Made by a program: the position numbers and the translations under genes | Notes under the pieces: generated by a model | Databases searched by the model: none | The model's input: only the letters and a program-made list of their open reading frames with translations | Told to the model about the DNA's origin: nothing | Source: Faecalimonas sp. | Lineage (GTDB): Bacteria > Bacillota_A > Clostridia > Lachnospirales > Lachnospiraceae | Length of the DNA stretch: 7,130 nucleotides | Direction of reading: 5' to 3' | NCBI GenBank assembly: GCA_026169575.1 | Contig: JAPFCT010000061.1 | Span: 1 to 7,130 of the forward strand | Part shown: one piece after another, positions 2-7,130 of the stretch | Layout: each line of letters starts with the position of its first letter | Position numbering within the stretch: the stretch's first letter is position 1

Positions 2-952
2 TACAATCTACAGAAGTGTACAGTGGTAATATTGGTTTGTTTGGCGAAAGTGATAGATGCTTTGGAAGACGTATTTCATGGCATGTTTCAGCAACATCTC
101 AGGTTGGATGTAGCAGGGAAGATCCTTACCATAAGGATTATGAGTTACATAGTTGTATATTTTGTTTTTTATATAATTACAGAAGATTTAATTATAACAT
201 CTGTGATTGCTCTTATTGTATCGTTTGTTCAATTTTTGTTGTTGAACTATATAGCGCTGAAAGAATTTGAAATTGAGAAGAAGAAATGGCGCTGCAATCA
301 GATGAAGAGATTATGCAGAGAATGCTTCCCGTTATTTATCGCCTCATATTTAGTGATTTATATAGGTAATGCTCCTAAATATGCTATTGATAAAGTGATG
401 TCCAGTGAAGCTCAGGCATGTTTTACTTATATTTTTATGCCTGTATTTGTGATTAGTCTTTTGAGTCAGTTTGTGTATCAGCCAGTAATCAGTAAGATGG
501 CATTGTTATGGCATGAAGGAAAATTTACGCAGTTTAAAAATTTAATATGGAAGCAGGCAGGACTTATCGTTTTGCTTTCTATGGTAGCGGTTTTGGGAGG
601 ATATTTTCTGGGGATTCCAGTATTATCTCTGCTTTACGGTGTAAACTTAAAAGAATATAAAACCGCATTGGTAATCTTGCTGATTGGTGGTGGGGCATTG
701 GCTTTTGTAAATTTCTTCCAAATGATTATTACAATAGTAAGAAAGCAAAATTTATTGATTGTCGGTTATATGTTTGCATTTTTATCATTTGTTTTCGGTG
801 GAAGGAAGGTTGTAGAACATTTTGGAATTGTAGGTATTTCCGGCTTTTACACAATAGTAGTAAGTGGAATTGGAATTGTTTTTACCGTATTAATTGTAAG
901 CCTCATTAACAAAAAAGGAAAAGAGAATGATAATTTTAGAGAAAAGATGTAA
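2..952 (+). CDS. Polysaccharide flippase (MOP/Wzx-like), 5' end cut by window edge
   Basis: Integral membrane protein that probably moves lipid-linked oligosaccharide units across the cytoplasmic membrane for capsule, exopolysaccharide or wall-polymer assembly. The frame is open from base 2 with no start in view. The GTG at 23 gives a 309-residue ORF, but the coding-like residues before it and the missing N-terminal helices show the real start lies upstream. Counting from base 2 (316 residues), about eight hydrophobic helices are visible, near residues 42-53, 56-78, 102-117, 133-158, 178-200, 214-237, 243-262 and 268-297. Family-like stretches are the segment with ALEDVFHGMFQQ and RLDVAGK, and NAPKYAID followed by a membrane stretch with FMPVFVISLLSQF, typical of Firmicutes polysaccharide flippases. 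About 110 N-terminal residues seem to be missing compared with the family. It ends with TAA 19 bases before the next gene, so the two are probably co-transcribed. The substrate cannot be read from this fragment. Confidence 0.85.
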   Translation, partial: YNLQKCTVVILVCLAKVIDALEDVFHGMFQQHLRLDVAGKILTIRIMSYIVVYFVFYIITEDLIITSVIALIVSFVQFLLLNYIALKEFEIEKKKWRCNQMKRLCRECFPLFIASYLVIYIGNAPKYAIDKVMSSEAQACFTYIFMPVFVISLLSQFVYQPVISKMALLWHEGKFTQFKNLIWKQAGLIVLLSMVAVLGGYFLGIPVLSLLYGVNLKEYKTALVILLIGGGALAFVNFFQMIITIVRKQNLLIVGYMFAFLSFVFGGRKVVEHFGIVGISGFYTIVVSGIGIVFTVLIVSLINKKGKENDNFREKM

Positions 953-971: not shown

Positions 972-2474
972 ATGTACAAATTTTTGAAAAGTGCTATAGT
1001 GTGTATTATAACAGTAGTATGTTTTGCTTTTTTAGGGGAAAGTAAGGTTTCTGCAGCAGATGAGATGAATGACAACATACAAAATATTAATATGTCGGGA
1101 ATGGAGGGGGAAATAAATATTGGAGAAGCAATGAATGCAGGAGATGAGATTCCTGCTTTTCAGTATGAGGAAGAGTGTACGGATATCTGGCTGGAGGGAA
1201 CATACCTCTATGAGGAGGCATGGAGGGTACTTGAATTAGTGAATCAAGAACGGACAAAAGCAGGTGTACCGGAAGTATCTATGGATAAAGATCTGTTACA
1301 TGCTGCTATGACGAGGGCGATAGAAACACAGATAGATTTTTCTCATACACGACCAAATGGGAAGAACTGTTTTTCTATTTCGGATAAAGCATCTGGAGAA
1401 AATATTGCAGCTGGGAATTCCACTGCAGAGGGGACAATGAATCAGTGGATGAATTCATCAGGACATAAGGCAAATATTCTAGATAAAGACTTTTCTATTA
1501 TGGGGGTAGGTTGTTTTACACAAGGTGGTGTCAGATACTGGGTACAATTATTCGGAAATTCAGAAGCCGTACCTACCGACGAAAGAGAAAATATTAACAC
1601 ACAGGAGGCTGTTGAGGTAATTACAGATAATATTCAATGCCAAATGAATGTGGGAGATCCATATCGATTAGCAAGAGGAGAAAAAGAGGATTATGATGGA
1701 AAATTTGTACTGTTAAATAATGGGTGGAACATAGCTGTCACATGGATTTTGCCATCAGCAGTTGAGTGGAGTAGCTCTGATATAAAAGTATTTCAAGTAG
1801 ATACATTGGGGCATTTAACAGGAGTAAAGGTTGGTTCGGGAACATTAACAGCAAAGCTGAAGGAGAAACCGGAGATACAAGATACGCTTAGAATTAATGT
1901 ATATGATCCTTATGGCTTGGAAAATGTAAGAAATCTAAAAGCTATTTCTTCAGGAAAGAATAAAGTGCTTTTATCATGGAATGTATCTGGAAATGCAGAA
2001 GGTTATTTAGTTTACGCGCAGAAAAGTGGCAAATACGGTTATGTGGGTATGACAACAAAGGGGACAACATTTACAGATAAGAACGCATTGGATACGGATT
2101 ATAATTACTACTGGGTATTCCCATATGTCACTGACCAGAATACCGGAAAAATGATCCCGGGTACATGTGAAAAATATGTTTATGCAAAAGGTGTGATTCC
2201 GGCAGTGCAGAATCTGAAAGCATCTTCTGTAAAAGGGGGAGTGAAGCTGACATGGACAAAACAAAATGATGCAGAAGGATATCTTGTATACGGGCAAAGA
2301 GCCGGTGGGAAATACGGTTATGTAGGCATGACAACAAAAGGAACAACATTTGTAGATAAGAAAGCATCTAAGACGGCATACAATTATTACTGGGTATTTC
2401 CATATCATAAAGATAGTAGAGGAGATATGATTGTGGGTGGAACACCGAAGTATACATATGGACGGGCATTGTAA
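972..2474 (+). CDS. Secreted CAP/SCP-domain protein with Ig-like domain and two Fn3-like C-terminal repeats
   Basis: A 500-residue exported protein. Residues 1-28 form a Sec signal peptide (basic start, hydrophobic core, probable cleavage after VSA or SAA near 28-29). A low-complexity acidic stretch follows to about residue 75. Residues 84-196 are a CAP domain (SCP/PR-1/YkwD type): VLELVNQERTKAG at the start, His125 in SHTRPNG, Glu143 in GENIA, His165 in GHKANIL, then GVGC and YWVQLFG. The cavity His/Glu residues are therefore kept. Residues 213-312 look like a Big_2-type bacterial Ig-like domain (VEWSSSD, then a GxLTGVKVGSGTLTA pattern). Residues 316-407 and 408-500 are two Fn3-like repeats also found in the downstream protease. 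No LPXTG or transmembrane anchor ends the protein, which stops at KYTYGRAL. Bacterial CAP proteins are secreted, but their molecular role is mostly unknown. The family call is firm; the function is not assigned. Confidence 0.9.
   Translation: MYKFLKSAIVCIITVVCFAFLGESKVSAADEMNDNIQNINMSGMEGEINIGEAMNAGDEIPAFQYEEECTDIWLEGTYLYEEAWRVLELVNQERTKAGVPEVSMDKDLLHAAMTRAIETQIDFSHTRPNGKNCFSISDKASGENIAAGNSTAEGTMNQWMNSSGHKANILDKDFSIMGVGCFTQGGVRYWVQLFGNSEAVPTDERENINTQEAVEVITDNIQCQMNVGDPYRLARGEKEDYDGKFVLLNNGWNIAVTWILPSAVEWSSSDIKVFQVDTLGHLTGVKVGSGTLTAKLKEKPEIQDTLRINVYDPYGLENVRNLKAISSGKNKVLLSWNVSGNAEGYLVYAQKSGKYGYVGMTTKGTTFTDKNALDTDYNYYWVFPYVTDQNTGKMIPGTCEKYVYAKGVIPAVQNLKASSVKGGVKLTWTKQNDAEGYLVYGQRAGGKYGYVGMTTKGTTFVDKKASKTAYNYYWVFPYHKDSRGDMIVGGTPKYTYGRAL
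1221..1559 (+). other. CAP (SCP/PR-1-like) domain
   Basis: This part encodes residues 84-196 of the CAP protein. The signature residues are His125, Glu143 and His165, with the closing YWVQLFG strand. About 113 residues fits the short bacterial YkwD-like CAP form. Confidence 0.85.
1917..2192 (+). repeat. Fn3-like repeat A1 (CAP protein)
   Basis: Encodes residues 316-407. The repeat starts around NLKA and the VLLSW strand, runs through AEGYLVYAQ, KYGYVGMTTKGTTFTDK and YNYYWVFPY, and ends at KYVYAKG. It is homologous to repeats A2, B1 and B2. The strand pattern is Fn3-like, but the aromatic-rich YNYYWVFPY core is distinctive. Confidence 0.8.
2193..2471 (+). repeat. Fn3-like repeat A2 (CAP protein)
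   Basis: Encodes residues 408-500 up to the stop codon. It differs from repeat B2 of the protease at only six of 93 residues by eye, while the DNA shows many silent differences. The coding sequence ends directly after KYTYGRAL, with no anchor. Confidence 0.85.
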
Positions 2475-2607: not shown

Positions 2608-4716
2608 ATGAGTAGAAAAAAGACAATATACAGCGTTTCTGCTATTTTAGCAGCAATTATGGTAATGGTACAGATTGATTTCCCGGCAAGCCATGCGATG
2701 GAGCCGGATGGAGGCACTCAAAATGAACTTTTTGCTGAAGAAGAAAACTTTTCAAAGGAAGAAAATGTAATTACAGAGTATTTCAATGAGGATGATCAGG
2801 AACAAAAGCAGATTATATGGGCGCAAGGTGTAAATCCACCTAAAATGGGAGGAGCGGACAGCGAATTTAAGAGAGAGACGCTTAATGATCCTCAGGGGAA
2901 TCCGCTTTTCATTGAATATAAGGTTCCTTATATTCCGAATAAAGGCTGGTATGATGTGAATAAGACAGAGGACAGAGAGGGAGATCAGGCTTTGTGTTTC
3001 GCGGCAGCGGCTTCCAATATGCTACATTGGTGGCTGGAACAGAATTCTGAATATATTGGACAGTATTTAGAAAAGAATCCAGATGCTCCTAAAAGAGAGG
3101 AATTAGAAAGTTTTTTAAATTCTTTTAAAAGTCAGTCAGATAGCGCGATATATAAAATGTTTTTCAAATATTATGCTTATAATACAGATGGATATTGGTC
3201 TGATATTTTAGTAGACCTATTTATAAATGGCTATCCGCCTAAGAAAGGGGGAGGGACAAATCATTCGGATGCTGATAAAGAAAAGCTTGAGCAGAATGGT
3301 CCGGATGAGAGAGGAGGATTTTTCTACAATATATTTGAAACAACTTTATTGACTGAACGAAGAAGCTACTTTGGAAGTTATGATTTGTTTAGCCGGGAGG
3401 TAAAAGAGCTATTACTTGCGGGAAAGCTTATGGTTGTAGATTATCAGAGGGGAAATTCTGCATTTGCCCATGTAATTACGATTTGGGGTGCGGAATTTAA
3501 TACAGATGGAAAACTCAGTGCTATATATGTTACAGATTCTGATGATGATAAAAGCCAGGGTATGATGCGATATATGGTAAAAAATATAGGCGGACGCCCT
3601 GCAATTACCACTAAAGTAAGTAATGATAATGTGCAAACCTTTGTTAATTATCTCCAAATTATTTCATCGGGAAAGGAAATATGGGAGGAAAAATTAAACG
3701 GAAAACAACCCGAAAAGTATCAGGTAACGGTAAATGGAGGATATGCAAGTGCGTCCAATGCCAGGGAAGGGGAGAAAGTGACAATTACTGCGGAGGAGCC
3801 AGAGGGAGAACAGTTTGTACGCTGGAATACAGAAGATCCAGAAGTGTTAATAGATCAGCCGGAAAGTCCGGAGACTACGTTTATTATGCCAGCAAATAAC
3901 GTAGAGATCACTGCAGAATTTAAAGTTAAAGAAGCAGAAAAATACGAGATAAAAGTAAATGGAGGTCATGCTGATACCATAAAAGCGCAGTCAGGTCAGA
4001 GGATAACGATTACAGCAGAAGAGCCATCGGATCAGCAGTTTGTGCGTTGGAACACAAAAAGTGAAGGAGTAGTGTTTGAAAATGCCGAAAGTGTACAGAC
4101 TACATTTGTCATGCCGGAAAATGATGTGGAGATTGCAGCAGAATTCAGAATAAAATTGCCAGAAGCAGTGACTAATTTAAAGAGTGTTTCGGATGGGAAG
4201 CAAAAAGTAAAATTAACCTGGGATGCATCAGCTGGTGCAGAGGGATATTTGATTTATGCACAGAAAGATGGAAAATACGGATATGCAGGAATGACAACAA
4301 GAGGAACAACATTTACAGATAAAAAGGCATTAGATACTGATTACAATTATTACTGGGTATTTCCGTATGTCACAGATATAGATAGCGGGAAGATGTTACC
4401 GGGAAAATGTACAAAATATGTCTGGGCAAAAGGTGTGATTCCGGCGGTGCAGAATCTGAAGGCATCTTCTGTGAAAGGAGGGGTAAAACTTACCTGGACA
4501 GAACAGAAGGATGCGGAGGGATATTTAGTATATGGGCAAAGAGCCGGTGGAAAATACGGATATGTAGGAATGACAACAAAAGGAACAACGTTTACAGACA
4601 AAGAGGCTTCAAAAACAGCGTATAACTATTACTGGGTATTTCCTTATCATAAGGATAGTAAAGGAAAAATGATCGTGGGAGGAACACCGAAATATACATA
4701 TGGACGGGCGCTATAA
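2608..4716 (+). CDS. Secreted IdeS/Mac-like cysteine protease (family C66) with InlB-type and Fn3-like C-terminal repeats
   Basis: A 702-residue exported protein, probably an immunoglobulin-cleaving endopeptidase. Residues 1-30 are a signal peptide (cleavage likely after ASHA). An acidic linker runs to about 68. Residues 69-358 match streptococcal IdeS along their length as I recall it: WAQGVNPP, NKGWYDVNKT, ALCFAAAASNMLHWW, LVDLFINGY, DERGGFF, and HVITIWGAEF followed by AIYVTDSD. The nucleophile is Cys130, with His288, Asp310 and Asp312. The His-to-Asp spacings of 22 and 24 equal those of IdeS His262/Asp284/Asp286. Lys119 fits the oxyanion-hole Lys84, with one extra residue before Cys. IdeS itself ends soon after this domain. 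Here two divergent InlB B-repeats (about 370-440 and 445-514) and two Fn3-like repeats (518-609 and 610-702) follow. No LPXTG is present. IdeS cleaves IgG below the hinge and relatives cleave IgM. The substrate of this enzyme is unknown; IgA would suit a gut host but is a guess. Confidence 0.9.
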   Translation: MSRKKTIYSVSAILAAIMVMVQIDFPASHAMEPDGGTQNELFAEEENFSKEENVITEYFNEDDQEQKQIIWAQGVNPPKMGGADSEFKRETLNDPQGNPLFIEYKVPYIPNKGWYDVNKTEDREGDQALCFAAAASNMLHWWLEQNSEYIGQYLEKNPDAPKREELESFLNSFKSQSDSAIYKMFFKYYAYNTDGYWSDILVDLFINGYPPKKGGGTNHSDADKEKLEQNGPDERGGFFYNIFETTLLTERRSYFGSYDLFSREVKELLLAGKLMVVDYQRGNSAFAHVITIWGAEFNTDGKLSAIYVTDSDDDKSQGMMRYMVKNIGGRPAITTKVSNDNVQTFVNYLQIISSGKEIWEEKLNGKQPEKYQVTVNGGYASASNAREGEKVTITAEEPEGEQFVRWNTEDPEVLIDQPESPETTFIMPANNVEITAEFKVKEAEKYEIKVNGGHADTIKAQSGQRITITAEEPSDQQFVRWNTKSEGVVFENAESVQTTFVMPENDVEIAAEFRIKLPEAVTNLKSVSDGKQKVKLTWDASAGAEGYLIYAQKDGKYGYAGMTTRGTTFTDKKALDTDYNYYWVFPYVTDIDSGKMLPGKCTKYVWAKGVIPAVQNLKASSVKGGVKLTWTEQKDAEGYLVYGQRAGGKYGYVGMTTKGTTFTDKEASKTAYNYYWVFPYHKDSKGKMIVGGTPKYTYGRAL
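2812..3681 (+). other. IdeS/Mac-like (C66) protease domain
   Basis: Encodes residues 69-358. All five residues known to matter in IdeS have counterparts: Lys119, Cys130, His288, Asp310 and Asp312. The length is close to mature IdeS (about 310 residues). The region between 150 and 280 is the least conserved with IdeS and includes the loops likely to set substrate choice. Confidence 0.88.
3715..3927 (+). repeat. InlB-type B-repeat 1 (protease)
   Basis: Encodes residues 370-440. The pattern is YQVTVNGGYA, then GEKVTITAEEP, FVRWNT, TTFIMPANNVEITAEF. This is the divergent InlB B-repeat / bacterial-repeat fold, a small beta domain common in Gram-positive surface proteins as a stalk. Confidence 0.8.
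3940..4149 (+). repeat. InlB-type B-repeat 2 (protease)
   Basis: Encodes residues 445-514 and repeats the previous unit: YEIKVNGGHA, GQRITITAEEP, QQFVRWNT, TTFVMPENDVEIAAEF. The two copies are clearly homologous but diverged, so the duplication is not recent. Confidence 0.8.
4159..4434 (+). repeat. Fn3-like repeat B1 (protease)
   Basis: Encodes residues 518-609. It is the counterpart of A1 in the CAP protein: it shares AEGYL.YAQK.GKYGY, TDYNYYWVFPYVTD and the KY-aromatic-AKG ending, but it differs more in its first third than B2 does from A2. Confidence 0.8.
4435..4713 (+). repeat. Fn3-like repeat B2 (protease)
   Basis: Encodes residues 610-702 to the stop codon. It is 87 of 93 identical to A2 of the CAP protein, including the terminal KYTYGRAL. 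The differences are E/K, K/N, T/V, E/K, K/R and K/D. Confidence 0.85.
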
Positions 4717-5042: not shown

Positions 5043-5094
5043 GAAACAAGCTTATAAGGTCGGACAGAAAGAGTAGTATTTATTATATTATATG

Positions 5095-5100
5095 AGGAGG
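5095..5100 (+). promoter_or_regulatory. Ribosome binding site of the helical-protein gene, deciding its start
   Basis: A perfect AGGAGG lies six bases before the ATG at 5107. An in-frame ATG at 5092 would add MRRNL, but it sits upstream of this site and has none of its own, so 5107 is preferred. Confidence 0.85.
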
Positions 5101-5106
5101 AATCTT

Positions 5107-7130
5107 ATGAAGAGAAAACAAGTTGTAGCATTTCTGTTATGTGGAACACTGACATTAGGTGCGGCAACTCCTGTTATGGCAGCAGAGCCGGAGCCGGCTG
5201 TTGAAAAAACAGTAGAAGCAGGGCAGCAGGAAAGTCAGGAGATAAAGCCGGAAGTTACTGGGCCGGACGCTGGGGTTTCCCAGGAGACAGCGAAAGAAAC
5301 ACAAAAATCTGAGGAAATGAAAGTTCAGGAAGAGCCGGCTGCAGATCCGGTTGTACAAGGGCAGGAAGAAACAAAACCGCAGGAAGAGAACGGTACAGTA
5401 GCAGAAGAAGCAAAGCAGGGAACTCCGGAGGCTCCGCTGAAGGATCTGGCGTTAATGAGTAAGAATCTGACAGAGCTGGTGAATCAGGTAGAAACATTTT
5501 ATTCACAAATGTCAGAGAAGGAAAAAGCAGCGATTTCAGAAATCACCGGAAGTTCTGTTGATGTTTCCGGTAAGCTTGCCCAGTTAAAAGGAGCAGTATC
5601 CGAGACAACGTTAAGTGTTTTGGTACAGAATCTTCCGCCGGAAGAGGCCACAGCGGTTTTAGATGTCTATGAAGAGCAATTTGTTATGGAAGTAGATAAT
5701 CTGAAGAAAATATTACAAGATGCAAAGAATTATGTGTCAGATTATGAAGCGTACCTGACAGAAAATCTGACTATTTTGCGGCGCCAGTTAGAATCTATTC
5801 TGGCAACGAACCCGGAATTATTCATGGACGATTATCTTGTACAAATTCAGAGTTATTATGAGAAAGCGATTGCTTTTTCGGCAAATAATAACAGTCCGGA
5901 AGAGATTATAAAGCTTTTTGATGAAGCCATGGCTTATGCGGATGACATGGAAAAGCATCTGAATCCGGCAGTCCTGGAAGATGGTATAAAAGCAGGCGCT
6001 GCATTTGCAGGCTTTCTGAAGAGTGCACCGGCTTCTATGGCAGGCCAGACAGCATACAGTCTGGGTGGAGGAGACGTTTATACATATCAGAGAGTGGCAG
6101 ATGAACTGGCGCCGGACGCTGCTTCCTATGGACAGCAATTGCTGGAGGAATATAAGAATGGGCAGCTTTCTTATGCCAGCCTGTCTGATTATAATACATA
6201 CTATTATGAGAATGTAATGAATGCATACCAGAATGTTTCGGCAACAATTTTAAAAGAGGTCAGTGAGACTGTAGAAGGGGCGAATGCCATTGGATATGCC
6301 GGAGCAGAAAAAGAGAACTATGAGACCGCATTGCAGGAATATCAGTCTGTGTTTGCAGCAAAGAACTACGGCGCTCTTTCCGGCGCGGCAGATAAACTTC
6401 AAAAGGCAGCAGATGCATATGCTCTTGCAGCAGAAAAGTATGCAAAAGAAGAGGGAGCAAAGCAGTTCGCAGACTTAAAAGAGCAGTTAGTGAAAATCCA
6501 GAATGATATAAAAGAGCATTCTGAGTACTATCAGGAGACTTATCTCAAGGAAGTGACAGAGATGATCGCAAAAATGGATGCGGCAGATCTGGATACGATG
6601 AGTGGACGTGATATCATTCAGATGGTTACTGATGCAAAAGCAGTTGCTGTAAAACAAGGCTCCAGCTATTCTGAAAAACTGACGGATCTTGTAGCAGATG
6701 CTGACAGTATGGTTACAAGCGCCCGGGCATGGTGGGAGTATCTTTCGGAAGAACTGAAAAGCAAGGATCCATATCAGGAAGCGGTTGAGATGACAAATGC
6801 TCTGTCAGAGGCACTGCAGACTTCCAATGGGGTATATGATTTAGAACAGCTCACTGCGGCATACGAGAAGTTTGCTTCTGATTATGCGAAAACAGATGGA
6901 AAACTTCAGACAGCAGCAAAGGCAGTCGCGCAGTATGTGCTGGATCAGGCAGAAAACGTATATGCGGAGGAATTAAAAAAAGAACATACAGAAGGTGTTC
7001 TGAAGGCTTTTGGAGATGCAATCGAAAATCTGAAAAAACAGATCGAAAAATGGGATTTTAATGGTACACGTTCAGCCGTTGAAGCAGTGAAAGCAGCAGA
7101 AAATTCCTTATTAAATGATAAGCCTGTGAA
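5107..7130 (+). CDS. Large secreted Ala/Glu-rich helical protein, 3' end cut by window edge
   Basis: The frame is open for 674 codons from the ATG at 5107 to the right edge with no stop. Residues 1-26 form a Sec signal peptide (MKRK start, hydrophobic core, cleavage after VMA or MAA). The Cys at 12 lies inside the core and is not in a lipobox. Residues 27 to about 110 are an acidic Glu/Gln/Pro/Lys-rich linker, probably disordered. From about 111 on, the chain is almost entirely predicted helix: many Ala, Glu, Lys, Tyr and Leu, few Gly or Pro, and no Cys. Segments at 430-480 and 599-655 look like long coiled-coil or helical-bundle stretches. I do not recognise the family. It may be a surface fibril, an adhesin or a ligand-binding protein; any anchor would lie beyond the window. 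It has its own promoter and follows the protease gene by 390 bases. Base composition looks richer in GC than in the flippase. Confidence 0.85.
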   Translation, partial: MKRKQVVAFLLCGTLTLGAATPVMAAEPEPAVEKTVEAGQQESQEIKPEVTGPDAGVSQETAKETQKSEEMKVQEEPAADPVVQGQEETKPQEENGTVAEEAKQGTPEAPLKDLALMSKNLTELVNQVETFYSQMSEKEKAAISEITGSSVDVSGKLAQLKGAVSETTLSVLVQNLPPEEATAVLDVYEEQFVMEVDNLKKILQDAKNYVSDYEAYLTENLTILRRQLESILATNPELFMDDYLVQIQSYYEKAIAFSANNNSPEEIIKLFDEAMAYADDMEKHLNPAVLEDGIKAGAAFAGFLKSAPASMAGQTAYSLGGGDVYTYQRVADELAPDAASYGQQLLEEYKNGQLSYASLSDYNTYYYENVMNAYQNVSATILKEVSETVEGANAIGYAGAEKENYETALQEYQSVFAAKNYGALSGAADKLQKAADAYALAAEKYAKEEGAKQFADLKEQLVKIQNDIKEHSEYYQETYLKEVTEMIAKMDAADLDTMSGRDIIQMVTDAKAVAVKQGSSYSEKLTDLVADADSMVTSARAWWEYLSEELKSKDPYQEAVEMTNALSEALQTSNGVYDLEQLTAAYEKFASDYAKTDGKLQTAAKAVAQYVLDQAENVYAEELKKEHTEGVLKAFGDAIENLKKQIEKWDFNGTRSAVEAVKAAENSLLNDKPV

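Follow-up and report, generated by a model that had tools for sequence, protein, structure and literature searches.

A putatively exported Mac-1 (C66) cysteine endopeptidase in a Lachnospiraceae contig and its candidate host immune substrates

The cysteine endopeptidases of the IdeS/Mac-1 family (C66) raise a question of substrate when they are met in a presumed gut commensal, as in the 7,130-nucleotide stretch of Faecalimonas sp. DNA analysed here (contig JAPFCT010000061.1; "the window"), where the gene at 2608..4716 had been proposed, in a sequence-only reading, to encode an IdeS-type immunoglobulin protease. It is asked here whether the product belongs to this family, whether its active site is intact, and which protein it would cut. 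The product is a Mac-1/C66 protein with an intact active site, and it is plausible that it is an active protease; that it is exported and cuts a host immune protein, most likely an immunoglobulin heavy chain with IgM as the first candidate, is given about an even chance.

The catalytic domain and its active site

The product of the open reading frame (ORF), which has a ribosome-binding-like GAGGAG directly upstream of its start codon, matched the Pfam family PF09028 (Mac-1) with 285.5 bits against a cut-off of 20.3 (E 7.3e-85), over residues 45-359 and profile positions 46-361 of 361. In a phmmer search of the PDB chains, IdeS/Mac-1 (2au1, 1.6e-41) was the best match, with IdeC (9hb1, 1.7e-39) and T-Mac (9arc, 3.3e-10) behind it, IdeS and IdeC being the nearest solved structures, and the predicted, high-confidence fold of the domain is the papain-like two-lobe fold of IdeS. 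The C66 assignment is upheld by these matches, and the domain limits, earlier put at residues 69-358, are corrected to about 45-362.

The five residues singled out earlier, Lys119, Cys130, His288, Asp310 and Asp312, stand at their places and face K84, C94, H262, D284 and D286 in the IdeS numbering of PMC11833123 and PMC12418751. None of the five varies among the 116 near full-length domains, the window protein included, this set comprising the 118 of the 120 listed proteins with the domain, minus two that are cut N-terminally. Cys130 is the sole cysteine of the domain, the spacings from His to Asp (22) and from Asp to Asp (2) are the same as in IdeS, and that from Lys to Cys is 11 residues versus 10. 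The block WAQGVNPP, also read before as matching IdeS, falls outside the phmmer alignments to IdeS, which start at residues 96-106, but its W71 and G74 are identical in the three compact IdeS-type rows.

In such an enzyme, Cys130, His288 and Asp310 would make the cut, and Lys119, held by Asp312, would form the oxyanion hole. In IdeC, Lys84 is held by Asp286 together with Tyr255 (PMC12418751), and Tyr255 has been described as important in IdeS (PMC11833123). By spacing, its place is taken by R281 in the window protein and by Thr in the Streptococcus suis rows, and because the latter also lack Tyr255, its loss is no argument against activity. A decayed or inactive homologue, retaining ligand binding only, is highly improbable: nothing direct speaks for it beyond the absent Tyr255 counterpart and the loop of residues 280-287 before His288, which has the length of the IdeS loop and is two residues longer than in most aligned rows of the window protein's own clade (the gut clade, below), while the ORF is full, the five residues are intact, the fold is predicted with high confidence and the nine positions at which the window domain deviates from the 90% consensus of its 31 fellow rows in the gut clade spare the active residues.

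Position in the tree and candidate substrates

The tree was computed with IQ-TREE from 77 domains and 323 columns and rooted at the midpoint; duplicates and fragments were left out, and 34 of the 35 protein representatives were included (P0080, on the same contig as L002, was omitted). The window domain lies with full support inside a 32-row clade, the five named rows of which (L001, L002, two of L003 and L004) are gut Lachnospiraceae, all others being protein rows. Eight S. suis-type rows join L005 (a Johnsonella metagenome-assembled genome, MAG), P0103 and L007 at 95/89, and this group joins the Lachnoanaerobaculum rows at 97/89 to give a 24-row S. suis/oral set that adjoins the gut clade. 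The compact IdeS enzymes L056-L058, among which L057 matches the PDB IdeS with 712 bits, lie beyond a starred 100/97 branch, apart from the gut clade. Domain identity to the window is 40-45% for the oral set, 39-41% for S. suis, 34-35% for IdeS and 23-25% for Treponema and Cruoricaptor. Grouping of IdeS with the gut clade was rejected by the approximately unbiased (AU) test (p 0.0059), as was its grouping with S. suis (p 1.5e-5), the groups in both tests having been named after the tree was seen.

The protein L059 (1141 residues) groups with the named S. suis rows and carries its active cysteine at 195, counting from the first methionine, and it is therefore taken as the described IgM protease, IdeSsuis. 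Among characterised enzymes, this protease rather than IdeS appears to lie nearest to the window domain in the tree, by a 94/88 join below the star threshold. IdeSsuis cuts porcine IgM between the constant domains 2 and 3 (PMC4404118), and the cleavage is lost in its C195S mutant (PMC6177247). The enzyme of the window would recognise a large host immune protein by an extended surface and not by a short motif; in IdeS, the contact with the IgG Fc is broad and also involves a loop opening ahead of the catalytic histidine (PMC9759587). The substrate would most likely be an immunoglobulin heavy chain, with IgM put first given that the tree places the IgM protease of S. suis nearest among the characterised enzymes, IgA next because it dominates in the gut, and IgG and complement as less likely targets. 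Where IgA, IgG and IgM had been offered together, the tree would put IgM in place of IgG as the isotype to favour. An IgG protease acting like IdeS is rather unlikely: among solved structures IdeS and IdeC come nearest, the triad is retained and the loop 280-287 is as long as that of IdeS, in contrast to most rows of the gut clade, but IgG is a minor isotype in the gut, the tree separates IdeS from the gut clade, the identity is just 34%, and the ranking of nearest folds cannot favour IdeSsuis because no S. suis entry is among the PDB matches.

The S. suis-type domains (L059, L060, L012 and L014-L018) group within the oral Lachnospiraceae-type Mac-1 set, which suggests a transfer between clostridia and S. 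suis in either direction. A separate observation concerns a Peptostreptococcaceae MAG (L021:10001-10867), whose Mac-1 domain has Tyr where the alignment places the catalytic His; this form may be inactive, or the alignment may have slipped.

Linker, tail, neighbouring genes and distribution

The features of the window are collected in Table 1. The InlB B-repeat linker was poorly modelled in the predicted structure, while the tail was predicted as two fibronectin type III (FN3) domains (pLDDT 95.9; Foldseek matches to FN3 pairs), and no LPXTG-type motif was found in the 702-residue protein. Among 120 listed of 677 tail relatives, leucine-rich repeat (LRR) proteins were the commonest carriers, the others including, by Pfam accessions, 4 GH25, 2 CHAP, 1 NlpC/P60, 2 transglutaminase and 4 CAP proteins, the window's own CAP protein among the last (PF05257, PF00877 and PF01841 standing for CHAP, NlpC/P60 and transglutaminase, respectively). 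The window tail is 88-93% identical to LRR-protein tails among the matches listed, with 89% for P0165 of Lachnospiraceae bacterium 9_1_43BFAA. To judge by these relatives, the tail is a shuffled module that is found on lysozymes and LRR proteins too, and the simplest reading would be that it holds secreted proteins at the cell wall. The linker and tail of the Mac-1 protein would then display the catalytic domain, probably keeping the enzyme at or near the wall, and molecules bound to the cell would be cut at its surface. The five printed C-termini of the gut clade (those of L001, L002, two of L003 and L004) show a hydrophobic stretch with basic residues, and surface display by differing means may be common in this clade.

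Table 1. Features located in the window (coordinates in nucleotides from the first letter)
Feature	Coordinates	Strand	Basis or remark
Polysaccharide flippase-type membrane protein, end	2..952	+	Polysacc_synt below cut-off; 71% DNA identity to G938 locus
CAP-domain (PF00188) protein, 500 aa, upstream neighbour	972..2474	+	Pfam; C-terminal FN3 tail 84% identical to that of the Mac-1 protein
Exported Mac-1 (C66) cysteine endopeptidase, whole ORF	2608..4716	+	702 aa, ATG start, stop included
N-terminal export signal, residues 1-31	2608..2700	+	Basic start, hydrophobic stretch, AxA-like end; read by eye
Mac-1/IdeS-type papain-fold catalytic domain, residues 45-362	2740..3693	+	
Lys119, counterpart of IdeS Lys84, oxyanion hole	2962..2964	+	Alignment to IdeS
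Cys130, nucleophile, counterpart of IdeS Cys94 and IdeSsuis Cys195	2995..2997	+	Alignments
Loop before catalytic His, residues 280-287, counterpart of IdeS prosegment binding loop	3445..3468	+	
His288, counterpart of IdeS His262	3469..3471	+	Alignment to IdeS
Asp310, counterpart of IdeS Asp284	3535..3537	+	Alignment to IdeS
Asp312, counterpart of IdeS Asp286	3541..3543	+	Alignment to IdeS
Two divergent InlB B-repeat domains (PF18998), linker from catalytic domain to tail	3694..4164	+	Pfam, two stretches
Tandem FN3 tail, residues 520-702	4165..4713	+	Sequence relatives and structure prediction

The FN3 tails of the CAP protein (1932-2471) and the Mac-1 protein (4174-4713) share 77% DNA identity over 300 nt. 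In G938, a genome in the genus of Mediterraneibacter massiliensis, a tail-bearing GH25 protein stands beside a relative of the flippase and nucleotide-sugar genes, and a 1514-residue protein also ends with the FN3 tail. The gut Clostridia host assumed earlier is well supported as Lachnospiraceae by such relatives, namely by the likeness of the flippase to G938 and of the tail to the LRR proteins, from which a gut origin would follow. Downstream, the start of a long exported protein rich in Glu, Ala and Lys (5092-7128), probably coiled-coil, runs off the window with weak Pfam matches only (LemA below cut-off).

A single scan across genome contigs found the Mac-1 gene at 30 loci. The gut Lachnospiraceae among the carriers are a Roseburia sp. 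MAG (its title points to a cat), M. massiliensis, M. glycyrrhizinilyticus and Dorea phocaeensis; the others include oral Lachnoanaerobaculum and its kin, S. suis and other streptococci, Peptostreptococcus porci, a Ruminococcus MAG, Treponema and Cruoricaptor, the body sites being in part general background, and one of the listed proteins (P0077) is named from Agathobaculum. The gene was found in 8 of 391 genomes of the class-level sample (6 above cut-off) and in 14 of 147 genomes of the genus to which the S. suis locus L012 belongs; these counts, like that of 9 in 397 for Lachnospiraceae, each include the centre genome. No neighbouring genes common to L001-L004 were seen when the ORFs around the loci were compared by eye, and the distribution fits a gene that would be passed around and often lost. 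Two Mac-1 genes stand at one locus in M. glycyrrhizinilyticus (L003:1463-3775 and 8779-11127) and in P. porci (L026), and the paired genes could differ in target. At L055 (G665:C1:2263845-2264159), a fragmentary second match with stop codons, perhaps a decaying duplicate, shortly follows an intact one, and a Bacteroides finegoldii plasmid record (H2, NZ_OY725919.1:14584-15198) annotates a gene with 26% identity as IdeS/Mac family cysteine endopeptidase.

The tail and the distribution bear on a further explanation, a general protease for nutrition or self-processing that has no bearing on host immunity and acts on dietary proteins, mucosal proteins or surface proteins of the bacterium itself. 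It would accord with a tail common to cell-wall enzymes and the neighbouring CAP protein, with the rarity of the gene in Lachnospiraceae and with the 7.1-kb window, in which no virulence-type neighbour was noticed. The named carriers of known origin, however, are from animals or people (by title or general knowledge, several MAGs being ambiguous), and the characterised relatives act on host immune proteins (PMC11833123, PMC9759587, PMC12418751, PMC6177247), which makes such a role improbable.

Weight of the evidence and comparison with known systems

Several points weigh against an antibody-cutting surface enzyme with IgM as its target. For the Treponema denticola enzyme T-Mac, PMC11833123 reports cleavage of C3, C3b, C4 and factor H and no cleavage of IgG, IgA, C5 or C4bp. 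Because this member of the Mac-1 family acts on complement and leaves IgG and IgA intact, family membership alone is no proof of an antibody substrate; the Mac-1 family is one of host immune-protein proteases and not of antibody proteases alone, and of the earlier proposal the family assignment stands and antibody cleavage is plausible. IdeSsuis is itself narrow, porcine IgM being termed its sole substrate (PMC6177247), and the S. suis and gut-clade domains share just 32-43% identity, so that the isotype and the host of the window enzyme may differ. The Tyr255 of IdeS is not retained, the join of the S. suis/oral set to the gut clade stays under the star threshold, and the AU groups were picked post hoc. 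Of the columns that separate S. suis from IdeS, the gut clade agrees with S. suis at 10 and with IdeS at 8, and specificity is unreadable from so even a split. With nine carriers, one of them barely above cut-off, in 397 genomes of Lachnospiraceae, the gene is rare, and hence no general commensal need for it is indicated. The wall binding of the tail is judged from its company only, in which LRR proteins are the commonest. An active Mac-1 protease that, like T-Mac, cuts complement or another defence protein (C3, C4, factor H) and no antibody is unlikely: the Treponema and Cruoricaptor rows are distant from the window domain, on long branches outside the other rows and with N at the D312 place in 3 of 3, and the window domain, with its own separate position and Asp312, does not fall in that T-Mac-type clade (T. 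denticola T-Mac itself is not among the tree rows).

The reading preferred remains that of an exported enzyme directed at an immunoglobulin heavy chain. Extended to the whole clade, it would mean that gut Lachnospiraceae hold a broad, horizontally scattered clade of surface immunoglobulin proteases, with the S. suis IgM protease as its streptococcal offshoot, which cut, locally, the IgM or the polymeric, secretory antibodies coating commensals and match, among cysteine proteases, the M64 IgA protease of Thomasclavelia ramosa; this is offered tentatively, with the balance somewhat against it. The commensal setting, pointed out earlier, is known at the annotation level, as NCBI records of such genes are named "IdeS/Mac family cysteine endopeptidase [Lachnospiraceae]" (P0053, P0080), and no functional paper on the gut clade was found among the matches listed from the open-licence literature. 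Cleavage of IgM or IgA by the gut clade would mean that ordinary commensals attack the secretory antibodies of the gut with a second family of enzymes, unrelated to the first, and would add new isotype-specific tools to IdeS; if the target is complement or another protein, the automatic IdeS/Mac label would mislead on function for many records. The tree, in turn, would recast the S. suis IgM protease as nearer to clostridial enzymes of the mouth and gut than to IdeS.

Compared with the known systems, the window protein is most like IdeSsuis, whose Mac-1 domain (L059) is 41% identical, has the same five residues, likewise lacks a counterpart of Tyr255 and is followed by a long C-terminal part, although the S. 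suis protein ends in a hydrophobic segment with basic residues and the window protein has no end of that kind but InlB repeats and the tandem FN3 tail. IdeS/Mac-1 of S. pyogenes and IdeC of S. canis differ from it as compact enzymes without linker or tail, on another branch of the tree (L057, 34% identical). T-Mac (C0362) of T. denticola shares the Mac-1 papain fold and the Cys-His-Lys site but is a far relative, its Ig-like domains being N-terminal and its targets complement and not IgG or IgA. The gut Lachnospiraceae enzymes of Mediterraneibacter, D. phocaeensis and the Roseburia sp. MAG belong to the same clade, with an N-terminal Mac-1 domain (45-48% identity for the named loci, up to 61% for other rows), and differ by hydrophobic-basic ends in the five printed and by Big_3_5 Ig-like domains in some, where the window protein has InlB and FN3 domains. 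ThomasA of the gut commensal T. ramosa, an M64 metallopeptidase that recognises the IgA Fab (PMC12402451), is alike as an antibody protease in a gut commensal and unlike in belonging to an unrelated metallopeptidase family.
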